Shown here: positions 13,990-22,285 of the stretch, piece by piece
How the letters are laid out: each line of letters starts with the position of its first letter
How positions within the stretch are numbered: the first letter of the stretch is position 1
Assembly (NCBI GenBank): GCA_016931315.1
Contig: JAFGFB010000302.1
Span: forward strand, 1 to 40,669
Source: Anaerolineae bacterium
Lineage (GTDB): Bacteria; Chloroflexota; Anaerolineae; B4-G1; SLSP01
Direction of reading: 5' to 3'
DNA length: 40,669 nt
The notes under the pieces: model-generated
The model's input: the letters and a program-made list of their open reading frames with translations, nothing else
Told to the model about the DNA's origin: nothing
Databases searched by the model: none
Position numbers and translations under genes: made by a program

Positions 13990-16900
13990 ATGACATTGAT
14001 GCAATCGGATCTATGGAAGCAGCTGGTGCAATGCTACACCGAAAAGACACAGCGCTGCGCCCCAAAAACCGCCGCCGAGCTCGGGCAGACCATGGCAGCA
14101 GCAGGCGACGCGCTCCAAGATATCGCCACGCTCCACGAGGCCACGCTCCAGCAGCTGGCACAGAAAGCCCCAGACCTGCCGCTACAGAAGGTAGCCCCGG
14201 AGATGTCTATTCTGCTATCCGAAATGCTCTCCGGATATGATTCTCAAAGTCGTCAGCAGCAAACCGCTGCTAGCGACCGGCGCGCCAGCCCCACCGCCGA
14301 GGTGCAACAGGCGCAACAGGACCTGGAAGCTCAACATGCCCGCCTCATCTCGCTGTACAGACTGGGCCGCACAATCAATGCCACGTTCGAAATTGATACG
14401 ATCTTTGAACTGATGGCAAGAGAAGCCATGCTGATCACTAGCGCCACGCACGGCGCGGTCCTCGTCGTAAACAAGGCCGAAGGCGTACAATACATCAGCC
14501 AGCTTCTGGGGTTCACTCCAGAAGAGGTCGCCTTTGCACAGAAAACGCCGTTGGTCCTGGGCAAAGGTCTGATTGGCTACGCCTACGAGAACCAGTGCAT
14601 CGTCGTTGTGGACGATGTGCGCGAAGATCCTCGTTACTGGGAATTCGTGCCCTCCACCCGCGCCGAGCTCGTCCTGCCTATTATTCACGGAACCACCGTT
14701 CTGGCACACCTCGACCTGCAAAGCCCACAAGTAGGCGCCTTCAGAAACGTTGACCTGGAATACCTGAAGGCATTAGCCGATCAAGCCGCAATTGCCATTC
14801 AGAATGCCAGGTTGTTTCAGCGTGCTCAATTGGAGATCAAAGAACGCACCCGGGTACAGGAAGACCTGGAACGCCGCGCCAAACAACTGCTGCTGGTGTG
14901 GCAGGTGAGCCAACAGGTCAGTTCACTGCTGGAGCCAGAGCCGCTGCTGAAGCAAATCGTCGAGCTCATCCGCCTGACCTTCAAATACGCCTACGTGGTG
15001 ATCCTGTTAGTAGATGACGCCAGAACTAAACTGAGTCTAAAGGCAAAATCTGGATTCCAAATGGAAGCCTCACGCACCATCGAATTGGAAATCGGCGTCC
15101 AGGGAATCTGTGGGTGGGTTGCAGCGCACGGACAACCGCTGCTGGTGAACGATGTCACGCGGGACCCCCGCTACTGGCAGCTGCGAGAATTGACCGAAAC
15201 CCGCTCCGAAATTGCCGTGCCGGTAAAAATCAAAGGACAGACCATCGGTGTTCTGGATGTCCAGAGCGCCTCATTCAACGCTTTTGGGGAAGATGATCTG
15301 TTTATTCTGGAAGTGCTTGCCGACCAGGTGGGGGTCACGGTGGAAAATGCCCGGCTCTTTTCCGCGGAGCAACAACGCCGGCAAGAGGCGGAGACCCTGC
15401 GCACGGCCGCCCTCTCAATGATCACCACCGTTGATCGTAGCCGCGTGATCGAACAGATTCTGATCCAACTGCGCAAAGTGGTCCCCTATGATAGCGCCTC
15501 GGTGCAGCTACTCAAAGGACAACGGCTGGGGGACCAACGGCTGGGGGACCAACGGCTGGGGGACCAGCGGCTGGAAATCATTGGCGGGCATGGTTTCCCC
15601 AATCTAGAAGAACTCTTGGGGGTGACCTTTGACCTGACAGCGAATAACAACCCCAACTGCGAGGTCATGCGCCGGCGGTCCACGTATATCGTCCAGGATG
15701 CACCCGCCGTTTATAACGAGTTCTTAAATACTCCCCATGTTAAAGCCAACATTCATTCCTGGTTGGGTGCTCCCCTCCTCATTGGCAACGAGCCGATTGG
15801 CATGATTGCACTCGACAAGCATGACCCAGGTTTCTACACTCAGGAACACGCGCGCCTGGCAGAAGCCTTTGCCGCACAAGCCGCTATCGCCGTGGCGAAC
15901 AGCCAGCTCTTTGAAGCCGAACGCGAGCAACGCGAATTAGCCGAAGCGCTGGCACAGGCGGCAGCAGCAGTCACAGCGACGCTGGATCTCAACGAAGTGC
16001 TGGACCGCATTCTGGAACAGGTTGAGCGTATCGTCACCGGAGATGCTTGTAATGTGATGTTAATTGATGGAGACTATGCACGCGCGGTGCGTTTTCGGGG
16101 ATATGAGAACCCCCGCTCCTCCTCCGCCAGAGCACAGAGCCCCATGCTCATTGCCGAGACCGGCACCCTCCGGCGAATGATTAAGACCGGGCAGCCTTTA
16201 GTCATCCCCAACACCTATGAGGACCCCCTGTGGATTGTGCCAGAAAGCGCCGAACGCCGGTGGTTGTGCTCCTATGTAGGTGCACCCATCCGCATGGGAG
16301 ACAAAATCCTGGGGTTCCTTAACGTGGATGCCGGACAGCCTGGAAGATTCGGACCCGATGATGCGCGCCGGTTAGCGCTCTTTGCACACCATGCTGCCAG
16401 CGCCATCGAAAACGCCCGCCTTTACCGGGAGTTGCAGGATTACGCCAGTGAACTTGAGCGGCGCGTTCAGGAGCGCACAGCACAAATTCAGGCGCAGCTG
16501 GCACGGCTCGATGCGATCCTGAACAGCACCTCCGACGGAATCATTGTGGCAGATATGCAGGGGAAAATCCTTCAGGCTAACCCGATAGCACAGGATTGGC
16601 TTAGCCGCACACTTGCCCCGGATGACGCGAACAAGCTGCGGGAAAGTATCCAGGAACTGTCGGAGCATCCCAACGACCACCCCCATACGCTTCTGGCGCT
16701 TCCGGGGATAGATTTGCAGCTCACTGCAGCCCCTATTTCTGAGCCTAAGCCACAACGACCTTCTGTGGTCATCACCATCCACGATATCAGCCAGCTCAAG
16801 GCTTTGGAACGTATGAAATCCAGTTTCGTCGCCAATGTCTCACATGAGCTCCGCACCCCGATCACCACCATCAAACTTTACACGGAGCTCATCACCAGGC

Positions 16901-17523
16901 AACCGCAAAAAGCCTCTCTCTATATGGAGATGTTAGCACAAAGCGTGGAGCACCTGGCACATTTGGTCGAGAAGATTCTCCAGCTGGCGCATATAGACGC
17001 CGGGCGGGTGGAGCTCCGCCTCGAAGCCACACGCCTACAGGATTTAGCAGAGCTCATCATAGGCAATCACCAGGTCATGGCGCGTCAATCCGGGGTACGA
17101 TTGCGCTTGCTGCCCGCCACACAAACCATCCAGGTGATGGCAGACCCCAAACAACTGGTGGAAGTGCTCAATAACCTCGTGGAGAATGGCATCCAATACA
17201 CACCGGGCGATGGAGAAATCACCGTTTCTATCAACACCGCTGAAATTGAACAACGTGCGTGGGCCACAGTGGAAATTCGAGACACAGGCATCGGCATTCC
17301 AGAGGACGAGCTGCCTTTTGTATTTGAGCGGTTCTTCCGGGGTAGAATTCCGCAAGTCATGCAGAAATCAGGAACAGGATTGGGGCTGGCAATTGTCAAA
17401 GAAATCGCGGAACTCCACGGGGGCTGGACGACCATCGAGAGCAAGGTCAATGCCGGTACCACAGTAACGATCTATTTACCCATGAGTCAGCCTTCGTCAA
17501 TCAATCCCTCACGCCAGGCGTAG
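13990..17523 (+). CDS. Large soluble sensor kinase: four GAF, PAS, HisKA, HATPase
   Basis: A 1177-residue kinase without membrane helices. An N-terminal helical region (1-85) resembles the four-helix N-terminus of RsbU-type regulators. GAF domains follow at about 125-280, 305-460, 475-640 and 660-815, each ending with the typical AIAIxNAxLF helix. A coiled stretch (815-835) leads to a PAS-like domain (835-935). HisKA has His952 in NVSHELRTPITT, and the ATPase domain has NNLVENGIQYT, DTGIGIP, FERFFRG and GTGLGLAI. Ligands of the GAF domains are unknown. GAF 3 contains a short in-frame repeat (residues 511-528). No receiver is fused; the regulator gene facing it from the other strand is not in its operon. 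Confidence 0.9.
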   Translation: MTLMQSDLWKQLVQCYTEKTQRCAPKTAAELGQTMAAAGDALQDIATLHEATLQQLAQKAPDLPLQKVAPEMSILLSEMLSGYDSQSRQQQTAASDRRASPTAEVQQAQQDLEAQHARLISLYRLGRTINATFEIDTIFELMAREAMLITSATHGAVLVVNKAEGVQYISQLLGFTPEEVAFAQKTPLVLGKGLIGYAYENQCIVVVDDVREDPRYWEFVPSTRAELVLPIIHGTTVLAHLDLQSPQVGAFRNVDLEYLKALADQAAIAIQNARLFQRAQLEIKERTRVQEDLERRAKQLLLVWQVSQQVSSLLEPEPLLKQIVELIRLTFKYAYVVILLVDDARTKLSLKAKSGFQMEASRTIELEIGVQGICGWVAAHGQPLLVNDVTRDPRYWQLRELTETRSEIAVPVKIKGQTIGVLDVQSASFNAFGEDDLFILEVLADQVGVTVENARLFSAEQQRRQEAETLRTAALSMITTVDRSRVIEQILIQLRKVVPYDSASVQLLKGQRLGDQRLGDQRLGDQRLEIIGGHGFPNLEELLGVTFDLTANNNPNCEVMRRRSTYIVQDAPAVYNEFLNTPHVKANIHSWLGAPLLIGNEPIGMIALDKHDPGFYTQEHARLAEAFAAQAAIAVANSQLFEAEREQRELAEALAQAAAAVTATLDLNEVLDRILEQVERIVTGDACNVMLIDGDYARAVRFRGYENPRSSSARAQSPMLIAETGTLRRMIKTGQPLVIPNTYEDPLWIVPESAERRWLCSYVGAPIRMGDKILGFLNVDAGQPGRFGPDDARRLALFAHHAASAIENARLYRELQDYASELERRVQERTAQIQAQLARLDAILNSTSDGIIVADMQGKILQANPIAQDWLSRTLAPDDANKLRESIQELSEHPNDHPHTLLALPGIDLQLTAAPISEPKPQRPSVVITIHDISQLKALERMKSSFVANVSHELRTPITTIKLYTELITRQPQKASLYMEMLAQSVEHLAHLVEKILQLAHIDAGRVELRLEATRLQDLAELIIGNHQVMARQSGVRLRLLPATQTIQVMADPKQLVEVLNNLVENGIQYTPGDGEITVSINTAEIEQRAWATVEIRDTGIGIPEDELPFVFERFFRGRIPQVMQKSGTGLGLAIVKEIAELHGGWTTIESKVNAGTTVTIYLPMSQPSSINPSRQA
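15520..15573 (+). repeat. In-frame 15-bp tandem repeat inside GAF 3
   Basis: CAACGGCTGGGGGAC is repeated three times without change, and a fourth partial unit differs by one base. It encodes QRLGD units between the first two strands of GAF 3, where family members normally have only a short turn. The period is a multiple of three, so the frame is kept. Confidence 0.9.
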
Positions 17524-18224
17524 ATCGCTGCCTGAGTTCGATCCGAGAGATGCAATTTGCCCAGCAGGTTGCTGACATGCGCCTTGACCGTACGCTCGGT
17601 CACCACCAGTGTCGCCGCAATCTCGGCGTTGGACTTGCCCTGTGCGATCAATTGCAGCACTTCCAATTCACGTGGCGTGAGATCGGCTGCCGGATCACGC
17701 GTCTGCGAAGGAGCAGAGACTTCAGCCATCAACCGGCGAGCAATGCGAGGATGTAGGGTAGCCTCACCCCCTGCCGCAGCACGGATAGCACGCAAGACCG
17801 CCGCTGCATCCGCGTCCTTAAGTAGATAGGATAGCGCCCCCGCCTTGATAGCGGCAAAAATTAGCTCGTCCTGCACATAACTGGTGAGCACCACCACCTG
17901 GGTATGGGGGCTAACCTCGCGGATGCGACGCGTTGCCTGCACGCCACCTTGCTCCGAAGGCTCGCGTCCCGGCTGCAATGGTAACACCAGGTCCATCAAA
18001 ACCACATCGGGCACCTGCTGTGCCACACCGTTGATGGCGCTGAGCGTATCACCGGCTTCGCCAGAAATGACAATATCGGGCTGAGCGTTCAGGTAAAAGC
18101 GCAATCCCTTGCGCACCACATCGTGATCATCTACAATGAAAACGGTGATAGGTTCCCGATCACCTGGGGTTTCTGGCAGCGAAGGCGAAGCCGTCGCGGA
18201 TGCCGCTCTGGAGGATCCCGTCAT
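17487..18224 (-). CDS. NarL/LuxR-family response regulator
   Basis: Receiver domain (about 25-150) with VDDH at 31-34, phosphoacceptor Asp78 in VLMDLVLP, TSY and LLKDA with the conserved Lys. The C-terminal LuxR-type HTH (about 180-240) has LTPRELEVLQLIAQGKSNAE and TVKAHVSNLLGKL. After the phosphoacceptor the usual short MPGMDG turn is replaced by a longer LQPGREPSEQGG loop. The start at 18224 is preferred over 18251: it follows the membrane-protein stop by seven bases and has AAGGTG in front. It is likely the output of the NarX-like kinase upstream in the same operon. Its 3' end overlaps the convergent GAF kinase by 37 bases. Confidence 0.88.
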   Translation of the reverse strand: MTGSSRAASATASPSLPETPGDREPITVFIVDDHDVVRKGLRFYLNAQPDIVISGEAGDTLSAINGVAQQVPDVVLMDLVLPLQPGREPSEQGGVQATRRIREVSPHTQVVVLTSYVQDELIFAAIKAGALSYLLKDADAAAVLRAIRAAAGGEATLHPRIARRLMAEVSAPSQTRDPAADLTPRELEVLQLIAQGKSNAEIAATLVVTERTVKAHVSNLLGKLHLSDRTQAAIYAWREGLIDEG

Positions 18225-18231
18225 CTCCTGT

Positions 18232-18591
18232 TCACCTTGCCTGCATCGCAAACACAGCCAGAATGACCCCGACCGTGAAAATCAGACCTATCAACACGAA
18301 TTTCACGCTGCGCGCCTGGTCAGATAACTCACCCACAGTCCGCTCGCGGAAGCGTACTGCCACCATCACCAGAATCACAAGAGGAATCAACGCAGCTAAT
18401 GCCCATGGTATTTCCTGTGAGAGAGCACCCATATCCAGGGCTGGAGTACCAGCACCCCGTCCAGCCCAGAACCCTGCCCCCAAGCCCAACAACAAGCCAA
18501 TCACAAAACCCCCAAGGCCCCGCCCCTCGCGTCGGCGTGGTTCTTGCCCCTCATTTCCATAGTCATACACAGGACCACCCATTTCAGCCAT
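18232..18591 (-). CDS. Small three-helix membrane protein of unknown function
   Basis: A 119-residue protein with a charged N-terminus (EGQEPRRREGRG) and three predicted membrane segments: about 30-48 (Gly-rich, GFVIGLLLGLGAGFWAG), 63-83 and 98-117. The start at 18591 is chosen for GGGAGG five bases upstream; the in-frame ATG at 18693 lacks one and adds no plausible protein. I do not recognise a family. It lies between an SPFH gene and a response regulator gene in one transcription direction, so it may anchor or partner the SPFH protein, which has no membrane segment of its own. Confidence 0.7.
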   Translation of the reverse strand: MAEMGGPVYDYGNEGQEPRRREGRGLGGFVIGLLLGLGAGFWAGRGAGTPALDMGALSQEIPWALAALIPLVILVMVAVRFRERTVGELSDQARSVKFVLIGLIFTVGVILAVFAMQAR

Positions 18592-18637
18592 AGATGCCTC
18601 CCAAACACACCCCATAAACAGATGGGGGAGAGTTAAT

Positions 18638-18691
18638 GTATTGGGCGCGGATGCCGGAGCACTGAGTACAGCGTACGGCGGCGCCCAATAC
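18638..18691 (-). other. Inverted repeat between SPFH and membrane-protein genes
   Basis: GTATTGGGCGC (18638-18648) and GCGCCCAATAC (18681-18691) are perfect 11-base arms around a 32-base loop with further pairing (GCCG/CGGC). The loop contains CTGAGTACA (18662-18670), a 9-mer that also occurs upstream of the kinase gene at 21455. It could be a terminator/attenuator or part of a promoter region; no T run follows. Confidence 0.4.
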
Positions 18692-18752
18692 ACCCTTTAT
18701 ACAGAGCTGCGGCGGCAAGTTGCCCCGGCGGCCCAGGTTGCCCCGGCGCAGG

Positions 18753-19610
18753 TTACCGCTGCGCTTTCACATTCAAAGGCAGTTCGCCCAACAACAGAAT
18801 CGGGCTGATGCCCTCTTGCGTGACGACGACCTTGGCATTATCCCGCAACGCGGTCTCCGTCATCTCCAGTTGACGCAACACCTGTGCATTGCCCTGGAAG
18901 TATTTCTCCGCCGCCTCATTGACCAGGCGAATCGCTTCGGCGCGACCTTCAGCAATCTTGATAGAGGCTTCGCGTTCACCCTCGGCCTTACGAATTGCCG
19001 CCTCACGGTCACCTTCAGCGCGCTGGATCGTCGCAAGCTTCTGCTGCTCCGCAGCCTCGAACTCACCGGTTGCCAACAGGCGCATGGAACGCCGTTCCTG
19101 CTCTGCTGTCTTCTGCTTATGCATGGCGATTTTGATGTCTTCCGGCGGATCAATCAACATGATCTCCACCTTGCTGACGATCAAGCCCCAATCATCGGCG
19201 AATTTATTGAGCACCGTTTGCAAATTATTCGCGATCTTTTCCCGTGCCACCAGACTTTCATCGAGTGTCAAATCGCCGAACTCCTGACGCAGGTTGGTCA
19301 TGGCGAGCTGAATCACCGCGCGCTTCCAGTTATCAATGTTGTAGAACGTACGTTTGATGGATTCCTCATCCGCCTTGGGGCGCACCCACATTACCCCGTC
19401 CACCCGAATCTCGACGTTGTCTTTGGTGATAACGGGCTGTGGGGGGATATCCATCGTGTGCTCGCGGATATCCCGGATCCGGATCATTTGAAGAATCGGG
19501 ATCTGGAAGCCAAAGCCAGGCAACACAAAGCGCGTATACTTCCCTAGAAATTCCTGAATGCCTCGCTCATAAGGCTTGAGGGTGTAAATGAAACCGACAA
19601 TTGTTCTCAT
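18753..19610 (-). CDS. SPFH (stomatin/prohibitin/flotillin) domain protein
   Basis: A 285-residue scaffold-type protein. The SPFH/band 7 domain spans about 10-200 (YERGIQEFLGKYTRFVLPGF, DNVEIRVDGVMWVRP, LRQEFGDLTLDE, DWGLIVSKVEIMLIDPP). A charged helix follows (about 170-235), built of AEGDREAAIRKAEGEREAS-like repeats that form the family's coiled coil, and a hydrophobic C-terminus LLLGELPL. The start at 19610 has AAAGGAG in front; an in-frame ATG at 19664 was rejected. Unlike most stomatins no N-terminal membrane hairpin is present. SPFH proteins organise membrane microdomains and bind proteases or kinases; its place between a sensor kinase and a membrane protein suggests a part in signalling. 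Confidence 0.88.
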   Translation of the reverse strand: MRTIVGFIYTLKPYERGIQEFLGKYTRFVLPGFGFQIPILQMIRIRDIREHTMDIPPQPVITKDNVEIRVDGVMWVRPKADEESIKRTFYNIDNWKRAVIQLAMTNLRQEFGDLTLDESLVAREKIANNLQTVLNKFADDWGLIVSKVEIMLIDPPEDIKIAMHKQKTAEQERRSMRLLATGEFEAAEQQKLATIQRAEGDREAAIRKAEGEREASIKIAEGRAEAIRLVNEAAEKYFQGNAQVLRQLEMTETALRDNAKVVVTQEGISPILLLGELPLNVKAQR

Positions 19611-19712
19611 ACCGCTCCTTTCTTCGACAATGAATAACACGATACCCGAAACGCAGAACCTCACACAATGCCGGAACTCTCAAAACCAAGATAATCCCAC
19701 TTTCCCCCACAG

Positions 19713-21368
19713 TCAAGGTCTGACAGGTGCAGATTGGGAATACCGATCAGCCTCCAAAGATGCCAATGCCAAACGCTCATCCAAAGCCCGCGCCACAATC
19801 ACGGCGAGCAGAGGCAACGGGATCGCCTGTTGCACCACAACGGAAAGGTTCTGACCGGACCACTTCAAATCCGCCATAGTGCTCCCCCCCTCATCATAGA
19901 GCACCAAGGTGTCCAGATTGTCCCGCCCCGGAACAAGGCTATAGCCATGTTCATCGAAATGGATCTCAGTCCAGGTTCGTATCTGCCGTCCCTGATACTG
20001 TAGAGCAGCCACAACCTGGCGCTTGAACATCAAAATCGCCCGACCTTGCTGCCCACGCACCCGCCGCAACTCCCACAAAGCCCCTTCTAACTCCCACCCA
20101 TAGCCGTTAGCGGTGTTATAGATTTCGACCAGGGCAATACCAGAACCCGCAGCTCGCAACTTCCAGGACTGACGCAACCCCAAAAGCTTGCGAGTCTTGT
20201 GAGCGACAAACGGGCCATCAATAGGATCGGCCAAAGGACGCCGCAGATTGCGCTGGTCAGCGGGAAGCCAGGGCCAGATTTGCCCTACCGGAATGACAAG
20301 CCGCTGCCCCAACCACGCCCAATTCTCAGGGCTGACATCGGGATGATATTGTGGCGCCCCGATACCCGCCACCAACGCGTTGCGCCGATCCGGCAGATTC
20401 ACTTCAGCACTGACGGTAGTACCACGCCCCAAATCACTCTCAACAATCAACCGCCCGCCCACACTCATCAGACGCTCAGTCATGCTGGCAAAACCCAAAC
20501 CCGTGTGGGGAGTGCTCATATCAAAGCCAACACCATTATCGGTTATCCGCAGCGAAACTGAAGCGGGCAAGCAATGCAAGATGATATCTACCCGGGTGGC
20601 GCGCGCGTGGCGAACCACATTGTGCAGCGACTCCTGCACAACTCGGTAGAGCGCTTCCGCTACCAGCGATGGCAGGCCTTGATCCGATCCCTCCACATCG
20701 AGGTAAATCAACAGGTGCTCCTGTGCGCCAAACAACAGGCTGAAATCATTCAGGGCACGGATCAACCCCAACTCACCGACAGAGCCCGGGCGCAAGTCCT
20801 CGATCAAGCGCGTCGTTTCCCGCTGCGCTGCCTGGGCAGCACGCTCAATCTCATCGAGCATCTCCGCCAGATCTCCTGGTAGTGCCCGCACGCTGCCACA
20901 ACGAGCGCGAATGGCGCTCGCCGTCATCGTCAAACTGAACAAATGCTGCTTAACGCTATCGTGCAATTCACGCGCCAGCCGATTCCGCTCCTCGACCACT
21001 GCTAGCGCGCGCACTTGATCCGTCAAGCGTGCATTGTGCTCACGCAGCACTTCCAGGTCTTCCTCGTCTTCTTTGAGATGTGCCGCCAGCACATCCAACT
21101 GCGCAGTGAGCAAGCCAAAGTCATCGGATACGGAATCAGCAATGCGCAGCCCCAGATGCCCCCGCAACCAGGCTTCGGTGATTTCAAGAGCGCGCCGCAG
21201 ACGCCGAGACCCGAGCCAACCCAGCGCCACACTTAGCATTAGACAGAACAATACCGCAACCCAGGGGCGCCAAAGAGCTATCAATAAGGTGAGCAGCCCG
21301 ACCAGGCTGTACACCAACGCCAGTTTATGAGATACTCGCAGGTTTACCCGACGATTTAGATTAGCCAT
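19713..21368 (-). CDS. NarX-like sensor kinase with unknown beta-rich C-terminal domain
   Basis: Two close membrane helices at about 14-32 and 36-51 anchor it with almost no external loop. A HAMP-like linker and coiled coil (60-125) precede HisKA_3 with His136 in ARELHDSVKQHLF. The HATPase domain (about 235-325) has ESLHNVVRHARA, DNGVGFD and GLGFASMTER. A further 225 residues follow that ordinary NarX-type kinases lack: a Pro-rich linker, then about 380-540, a series of amphipathic strands (WKLRAAG, IALVEIYN, YGWELEG, AILMFKRQ, TLVLYD) closed by a hydrophobic helix PLPLLAVIVARALDERLA. The pattern recalls tubby/LURP-one/scramblase-like barrels, but this is a weak impression. The start at 21368 has GGGGAG upstream. 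Partner regulator: the gene at 17487. Confidence 0.85.
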   Translation of the reverse strand: MANLNRRVNLRVSHKLALVYSLVGLLTLLIALWRPWVAVLFCLMLSVALGWLGSRRLRRALEITEAWLRGHLGLRIADSVSDDFGLLTAQLDVLAAHLKEDEEDLEVLREHNARLTDQVRALAVVEERNRLARELHDSVKQHLFSLTMTASAIRARCGSVRALPGDLAEMLDEIERAAQAAQRETTRLIEDLRPGSVGELGLIRALNDFSLLFGAQEHLLIYLDVEGSDQGLPSLVAEALYRVVQESLHNVVRHARATRVDIILHCLPASVSLRITDNGVGFDMSTPHTGLGFASMTERLMSVGGRLIVESDLGRGTTVSAEVNLPDRRNALVAGIGAPQYHPDVSPENWAWLGQRLVIPVGQIWPWLPADQRNLRRPLADPIDGPFVAHKTRKLLGLRQSWKLRAAGSGIALVEIYNTANGYGWELEGALWELRRVRGQQGRAILMFKRQVVAALQYQGRQIRTWTEIHFDEHGYSLVPGRDNLDTLVLYDEGGSTMADLKWSGQNLSVVVQQAIPLPLLAVIVARALDERLALASLEADRYSQSAPVRP

Positions 21369-21440
21369 AGACGTCTCCCCGTTCCAAACTACCCTGATTG
21401 TAACCCGGCTTCGCTTTTCTGTCATCAGGCGGATGAACAA

Positions 21441-21463
21441 ATTATGGCCTGTACCTGAGTACA
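21441..21463 (-). promoter_or_regulatory. Candidate promoter and dyad upstream of the NarX-like kinase
   Basis: On the minus strand CAGGCCATAAT (21451-21441) matches 10 of 11 bases of the CAGGCTATAAT found at two other promoters here. Just upstream, 21450-21463 is a dyad TGTAC-N4-GTACA. Read on the minus strand it contains TACTCAG, close to the TACYYMT heptamer known for NarL. It lies about 75 bases before the ATG. Confidence 0.35.
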
Positions 21464-21538: not shown

Positions 21539-22285
21539 CTAGAGTGCTTGAAAGATAGCAATCCGGCGTTTCCCCACCTGAAATTGCTCCAGCCTGCGGT
21601 AACCGGGATGAGCGGGTTTGACACTCTTATCGGCAGCGATGGCTACCAGGCCAGCGGGAGCGAGAACAGCAAGCAGAGCTTCGAGCATAGCGACCAGCGG
21701 GGTGGATGAGACGTCGCCCTTCCAATGCGAGCGCTGCCCGTAGGGAACATCTGAAAAGACCACATCCACAGTACGTTCCCCCAGATTCTCGGATAATACC
21801 TCACCGTGGGTCGCATCCGCCTGGAAAGCCCACGCAACAAGCGGCATCGAGGCGGGCTGTGCGAGCAGCTGCTTCTGGAGCAAAGCGGCGCTATGCAGGG
21901 CTTCTTGGTGCGAAGCTTTCCCAAAGCGCGCCAAGAGTGTCTCCAGTTCCACGCGGCGCCACTCCAGGCCTTCAAGCGTCAACAACGAGAGATTGCGCCG
22001 GGCACATTCCACTGCCGCAACATCCACGTCAGCGCCAATCACCTCGCGCAAGGCATCCCGGTGCAGAAAGGCGACGACGCCCAAACCATAAGCCGCACCA
22101 CAACAGGGGTCAAACAACGTGCATGGCGCCGTCTCTCCCGCTCGTCGGCGCCAATCCAGGCAACGTTGGAAAATCTCGCTCGCAAGCCGCACAGGGAATG
22201 CCGGATACCCAGGCAGATTATAAAACACATGCCCGCTAGCAAGATGAGAATAATCCGGTCGCTCAACAGCAAATCGGTAATCCAT
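21539..22285 (-). CDS. aviRa: AviRa-family 23S rRNA methyltransferase
   Basis: A 248-residue SAM-dependent methyltransferase. It matches, from memory, the AviRa pattern of Streptomyces viridochromogenes in order: FPVRLASEIFQR (about 30-41), motif I FDPCCGAAYGLG (58-69), FLHR, GADVD (84-88), LLTLEGL, ARFGKASHQEA, and the catalytic-loop motif SDVPYGQRSHWKGDV (178-192). AviRa methylates a guanine of 23S rRNA domain V and gives avilamycin resistance. Whether this protein confers resistance or is a housekeeping modifier cannot be told from sequence. There is no ribosome site, and a TATAGT box sits eight bases before the ATG, suggesting a leaderless mRNA. The gene stands alone between the liv terminator and the kinase operon. 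Confidence 0.8.
   Translation of the reverse strand: MDYRFAVERPDYSHLASGHVFYNLPGYPAFPVRLASEIFQRCLDWRRRAGETAPCTLFDPCCGAAYGLGVVAFLHRDALREVIGADVDVAAVECARRNLSLLTLEGLEWRRVELETLLARFGKASHQEALHSAALLQKQLLAQPASMPLVAWAFQADATHGEVLSENLGERTVDVVFSDVPYGQRSHWKGDVSSTPLVAMLEALLAVLAPAGLVAIAADKSVKPAHPGYRRLEQFQVGKRRIAIFQAL

Follow-up and report, generated by a model that had tools for sequence, protein, structure and literature searches.

A Conserved Kinase–SPFH–Regulator Operon of Anaerolineae, Probably an Autoregulated Envelope-Stress Module

Introduction

What is the role of an SPFH gene that lies within a two-component operon, and what does the kinase of such an operon read? These questions are raised by four genes standing in a row on the minus strand (17487-21368) of contig JAFGFB010000302.1 from an Anaerolineae bacterium, the whole 40,669 nucleotides of which are referred to here as the window. 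The host genome, from Chloroflexota, comprises 4.35 Mb in 330 contigs. The genes encode a sensor histidine kinase, an SPFH protein, a three-helix membrane protein and a response regulator, and Pfam and hydropathy analyses located all four where a sequence-only reading of the window had placed them. The tubby-like tail of the kinase and the SPFH gene inside the operon are the unusual parts of the system.

We propose that the operon is probably a self-contained and autoregulated envelope-stress two-component module, similar in its working to LiaFSR-LiaIH, with the SPFH protein as its built-in output. Given its two helices and near lack of an outside loop, the kinase most likely takes its signal directly from the membrane or from a partner there, membrane stress being the presumed stimulus, and its tubby-like tail probably touches the inner leaflet. 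The active kinase would phosphorylate the NarL-type regulator, which would bind TGTACYYRRGTACA, some 66 bp ahead of the transcription start, and raise the expression of the kinase, the SPFH protein, the three-helix protein (where present) and the regulator itself. As a built-in effector, the SPFH protein would serve as a membrane scaffold or stabiliser, perhaps anchored with the help of the three-helix protein. In some relatives the same regulator may also control flotillin, ATP-binding cassette (ABC) exporters, bPH2 or DUF2207 proteins.

Conservation of the Operon

The distribution of the operon was followed by searching with the C-terminal ~220 residues of the kinase. This tail was found in 18 of 80 relatives, in 16 of the 24 genomes of the window's own family and in 17 of 396 genomes of the class, one of them scoring merely marginally (G181), while in a phylum-wide sample of 400 the only strong match was the window's own genome. 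The named relatives with the same tail are metagenome-assembled Anaerolineae/Thermoflexia. The kinase gene was followed by the SPFH gene in all 18 loci with both ends on the contig, and the regulator was next in line in all 16 whose contig reaches far enough. Loci with this order span three families of the class (f1, f3 and f26), and the genes flanking the operon vary from genus to genus. A conserved neighbourhood in related genomes, which had been set beforehand as a test of the system, was found, and its conserved core is the three genes for kinase, SPFH protein and regulator.

The idea of a conserved four-gene complex, however, is not supported. The gene for the 119-residue membrane protein (18591-18232, minus strand) does encode three helices by hydropathy, as expected, and the protein has no Pfam match. 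Each of the five genus members has it, as do genus g2 (L030) and one genome of genus g10 (G018), but other genera lack it, and it is regarded as a dispensable accessory outside the core. At one locus (L029) seemingly just a 3' remnant of the gene is left. Three loci of genera g9 and g10 (L031, L032 and L034) have a metallo-beta-lactamase-fold hydrolase between the SPFH protein and the regulator. Two-component genes near SPFH genes in families f17 and f40 were not counted, having neither the tail nor the promoter described below.

One Conserved Promoter with a Candidate Operator

A block upstream of the kinase gene is conserved in the DNA alignment of four species of the genus, although the remaining spacer has diverged. 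It holds the palindrome TGTACTCAGGTACA (21450..21463, minus strand), centred near -66 and at a fixed distance from the -35 element, and a promoter (21397..21425, minus strand) with the -35 element ATGACA (21425-21420), a spacing of 17 nt and the -10 element TACAAT (21402-21397), which was recognised by a consensus scan and by its conservation across genera. Across genera and families the arrangement becomes a composite in which 24 nt (23 in G015) separate the palindrome TGTACYYRRGTACA from a -35 element with ATGACA at its end, and a further 17 nt (in G012, 16) separate this from a -10 element of the form TAYNNT. Palindrome and promoter precede all 15 kinase genes with upstream DNA on the contig among the 80 relatives; in a sixteenth case (G131) a bPH2 gene comes between them and the kinase. 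The host genome has a single copy of the palindrome.

The exact palindrome was present in 13 of the 18 kinase-bearing relatives versus 1 of the 62 others, in which it falls within a coding sequence. For the entire composite, allowing three mismatches at most, the counts were 15 of 18 versus 1 of 62. None of the 14 genomes with an SPFH orthologue and no kinase had the composite promoter. A reversed control pattern gave no match in the 80 relatives and 2 in the 396 class genomes. By these counts the site goes with the two-component system rather than with the SPFH gene, which is how an operator of the regulator should behave. The palindrome is thus the probable operator of the regulator, which would bind there and act as an activator. 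The vicinity of -66 is a usual activator position in bacterial promoters.

Matches of other kinds were set aside. The palindrome of G045 lies inside an ABC-permease reading frame and has no promoter, and the composite matches in G029, G246, G271 and G196 (2-3 mismatches, no kinase) are attributed to chance, in view of the two control matches in 396 genomes. A second inverted repeat, TCATCCGCCTGATGA, overlaps the -35 element; it is confined to this genus and was not taken as a general operator.

Separate transcripts for the four genes, which the sequence-only reading had named as evidence against a common system, did not emerge. The one conserved promoter lies upstream of the kinase, and neither the spacer preceding the SPFH gene nor that preceding the three-helix gene has a conserved one; a possible internal promoter ahead of the SPFH gene was rejected on that ground. 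These results favour a single transcript, started at one autoregulated promoter.

Other Genes Behind the Same Promoter

In kinase-bearing relatives further copies of the promoter stand ahead of other genes and in the same orientation. Three of these copies belong to G035, where they precede a MacB-type permease with an HlyD-like adaptor and an ATPase (0 mismatches), a 169-residue protein (2 mismatches) and a flotillin-like Band_7 protein (3 mismatches). A NatAB-like ABC transporter operon stands behind a copy with 3 mismatches in G005, the same DUF2207 membrane protein behind copies with 1 mismatch each in G002 and G003, and a short-chain dehydrogenase behind a doubtful copy with 3 mismatches in G012. 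In family f26 a bPH2 membrane protein comes first behind the promoter (0 mismatches in G131 and 1 in G104), its gene in G131 standing immediately ahead of the kinase, SPFH and regulator genes. Such extra sites occur in 5 of the 18 kinase-bearing relatives versus one match in the 62 others (Fisher p = 0.002). Flotillin, ABC exporters, bPH2 and DUF2207 proteins are all membrane or membrane-associated, which suggests an envelope response. The membrane role that had been surmised for the four genes thereby gains independent support from a flotillin, two kinds of ABC transporter, bPH2 and DUF2207 behind the same promoter in relatives.

The bPH2 gene of G104 (L174, G104:C190) follows the promoter though no kinase tail was detected in that genome; either the kinase gene lies in a part missing from the assembly, or the site answers to a different regulator. 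The 169-residue protein of G035 (L138 6359-6868, plus strand) looks by eye like a stand-alone tubby-like domain. It has no Pfam match and its profile match to the kinase tail is not significant, and we do not claim it as such.

The Kinase, Its Tail and the Regulator

The kinase (21368-19713, minus strand; 551 residues) consists, from Pfam, alignment, hydropathy, motifs and a structural model, of two transmembrane helices, a HAMP-like linker, HisKA_3 (E=7e-17), HATPase_c (E=6e-13) and a C-terminal extension. The phospho-acceptor His (ELHDS), the N box (HNVVRHA) and the G box (DNGVGFD) are intact. By hydropathy the two helices are adjacent (residues about 15-33 and 36-54), so that the near absence of an external loop, already noticed from the sequence, was confirmed; the loop has a few residues in this genus and about 10-17 in other genera. 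Like kinases of the LiaRS/VraSR type, it is a HisKA_3 protein whose two transmembrane helices enclose only a very short external loop, and it lacks a NarX-type periplasmic sensor domain. The regulator (18224-17487, minus strand; 245 residues) combines Response_reg and GerE with intact receiver motifs, as its description as NarL-like had implied.

The NCBIfam models of related systems scored below their cut-offs. The best match of the regulator was MadR (173.8 bits versus a cut-off of 300) and the second best of the kinase was LiaS (98.7 versus 450), while the NarX and NarL equivalogs scored 76.6 and 149.4 bits against cut-offs of 578 and 250. MadR and LiaS, the nearest below-cut-off models of regulator and kinase, both belong to envelope-stress systems.

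The last ~200 residues of the kinase, called a novel C-terminal domain in the sequence-only reading, have no Pfam match. The fold of this domain is nevertheless recognisable. Many residues are invariant among 17 aligned tails, including the linker motif IPVGQ[TI]WPW and the domain motif Q-Y-x-G-R; the domain covers residues about 387-546 (19731..20210, minus strand). AlphaFold models of the tails have twelve strands followed by one long hydrophobic helix (predicted local distance difference test, pLDDT, 78; predicted TM-score, pTM, 0.78), and the full-length kinase model repeats this layout. When the PDB was searched with Foldseek, the top match of the tail was 1zxu, Arabidopsis At5g01750 (E = 1.4e-3, probability 1.00), followed by the C-terminal domain of human TULP1 (probability 0.99-1.00). 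The tail thus resembles the tubby-like/LURP-one superfamily (Pfam clan CL0395; PDB 1zxu, 2fim; PMC10584680) in its modelled twelve strands and C-terminal hydrophobic helix and in having superfamily members as its best PDB matches. It differs in lacking a sequence-level match, no member of alignment A2 matching a CL0395 model of Pfam at E<=1, and in being fused to a histidine kinase. The barrel of twelve strands around a hydrophobic helix is seen in the predicted model only.

Tubby-like proteins bind phosphoinositides or act as scramblases (PMC10584680). The modelled fold suggests that the tail probably contacts the inner leaflet, where it may bind lipid. A stronger version, which we regard as possible but hold tentatively, is that the kinase is a direct inner-leaflet lipid sensor, its tubby-like domain reading lipid identity or packing and setting the amount of its own SPFH protein through the palindrome.

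The SPFH Protein: Output or Part of the Sensor

The SPFH protein (19610-18753, minus strand; 285 residues) is a member of its superfamily by Band_7 (E=8e-32; PF01145, 111.2 bits versus a gathering score of 23.6). Its start is the ATG at 19610, preceded by the ribosome-binding site AGAAAGGAG, which is kept in five genomes, and orthologues that begin with MRTI agree with this start. With the start so fixed, the protein lacks a membrane anchor, as had been supposed; hydropathy reveals no transmembrane segment. It is neither FloT (23.8 bits versus a cut-off of 700 for the NCBIfam flotillin model, and only 285 residues) nor HflK (TIGR01933, 62.9 bits versus 159.4, and no N-terminal anchor). The orthologues of the operon protein, about 76-98% identical, form a group well apart from the remaining SPFH proteins, all of which are at <=45%. 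A tree of SPFH proteins unites the 15 kinase-linked rows of family f1 in one group (97/92) and leaves the rows of f3 and f26 outside it, a topology compatible with one origin of the linkage as well as with several. Anchorless orthologues about 74-82% identical (L053, L056-L068) occur, unaccompanied by the kinase, in many families across the class, and the host genome has two further SPFH-family genes outside the operon (L023 and L024), 36% and 22% identical to the operon protein.

We consider it unlikely, though not negligibly so, that the SPFH protein is a part of the sensor instead of the output, scaffolding or clustering the kinase in a membrane microdomain so that membrane-dependent SPFH assembly sets kinase activity. 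The SPFH gene is directly behind the kinase in every locus, and outside the genus the protein is far better conserved than the kinase (about 78-88% versus 45-57%). Moreover, there is a precedent in Bacillus subtilis, where the flotillins FloA and FloT tether PhoR and ResE and tune their dimerisation (PMC4409396). Yet SPFH orthologues about 74-78% identical exist without the kinase in other families, and thus the protein has a function of its own, and the finding that in G035 this promoter also precedes a flotillin suits a role of SPFH proteins as outputs. The SPFH protein as output accounts for the locus at least as well as the SPFH assembly as signal, and the two roles are mutually compatible. 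It is quite improbable that the operon is a cytoplasmic- or redox-sensing NarL-type system that merely acquired an SPFH gene, with an incidental membrane role: NarX/NarL-type families do show general similarity to the kinase and regulator, and a cytosolic tail could bind a soluble ligand, but every informative locus, across three families, retains the link to the SPFH gene while most other neighbours change, and the other genes behind the promoter are nearly all membrane-related.

The envelope-stress module with the SPFH protein as output must itself be weighed against several points. A kinase without an external loop may respond to a cytoplasmic signal too. Regulator binding, phosphorylation and the change in expression are predictions. 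The Foldseek TM-scores of the tail are modest (0.36-0.49), and sequence-profile searches of PDB and Pfam with the tail were blank, no profile tying it to tubby proteins; for these reasons we call the modelled tail tubby-like by fold and not by family membership. The sites with three mismatches (G005, G035 C89 and G012 C79) are individually weak, and in the window's own genome the palindrome targets this operon alone, the wider regulon being drawn from relatives.

Comparison with Known Systems

In its working the operon resembles LiaFSR-LiaIH of Bacillus subtilis (PMC3543457; PMC11237479), which has a HisKA_3-type kinase with a minimal external loop. LiaR induces liaIH and thereby the whole lia locus (PMC3543457), and the shared features extend to a NarL-type regulator, to autoregulation (predicted here) and to an output, proposed for our operon, of a small membrane protein and a peripheral membrane-protecting protein. 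In contrast to Lia, the operon has no PspA-type LiaH, its effector slot would be taken by the SPFH protein, its kinase has a tubby-like tail and its operator is different; no LiaF/toastrack inhibitor is found in the operon or in the relatives' loci. Because LiaF and a PspA-type protein are lacking and the LiaS and MadR models score well below their cut-offs, the operon is not a member of LiaFSR-LiaIH.

YdjFGHI of Bacillus subtilis (PMC8581546) is an envelope-stress operon that likewise has an SPFH protein with no classical anchor, working together with small integral membrane proteins, and in YdjGHI the SPFH protein depends on its integral membrane partners in a stress complex (PMC8581546). 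The Ydj operon, however, has no kinase or regulator and its system is centred on PspA, which the window operon lacks. MadRS of Enterococcus faecalis (PMC10614854) is linked to our regulator by the best NCBIfam score (173.8 bits) and has a regulon of ABC transporters and membrane-protecting functions; the regulator is nevertheless far under the 300-bit MadR cut-off, the MadRS signal comes from the ABC transporter MadAB, and MadRS has no SPFH protein. PspA and PspC are absent from the operon and the relatives' loci, the part of the genomes searched for them. Passages of a survey of phage-shock neighbourhoods describe Band-7 proteins with PspA, and two-component systems with PspA or PspC, and do not describe the kinase–SPFH–regulator unit (PMC11237479). 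In a literature search of open-licence papers, neither a kinase–SPFH–regulator operon nor a fusion of a tubby-like domain to a histidine kinase was found.

Neighbouring Genes

Convergent with the operon is a gene (13990-17523, plus strand) for a 1177-residue kinase with four GAF domains and HisKA/HATPase, whose 3' end overlaps that of the regulator gene by 37 bp. It contains the short tandem repeat QRLGD x4 and adjoins the operon in other genus members too. Immediately upstream of the operon lies an AviRa-type 23S rRNA methyltransferase gene (21539-22285, minus strand; PF11599, E=5e-71), which stands beside a branched-chain amino acid/urea-type ABC transporter and adjoins the kinase in this genus only.

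Biological Significance

How the widespread bacterial SPFH proteins are controlled, and whether they sense the membrane or only organise it, is a largely open question. In the present case the SPFH gene is built into a two-component operon whose candidate operator occurs exactly once in the host genome, so that cause and effect can be tested at one promoter. A tubby-like domain fused to a histidine kinase would be a bacterial example of lipid-reading signal input. If the kinase does sense lipids directly, the operon would form a closed homeostatic loop, with a kinase that reads lipids controlling a protein that organises them.

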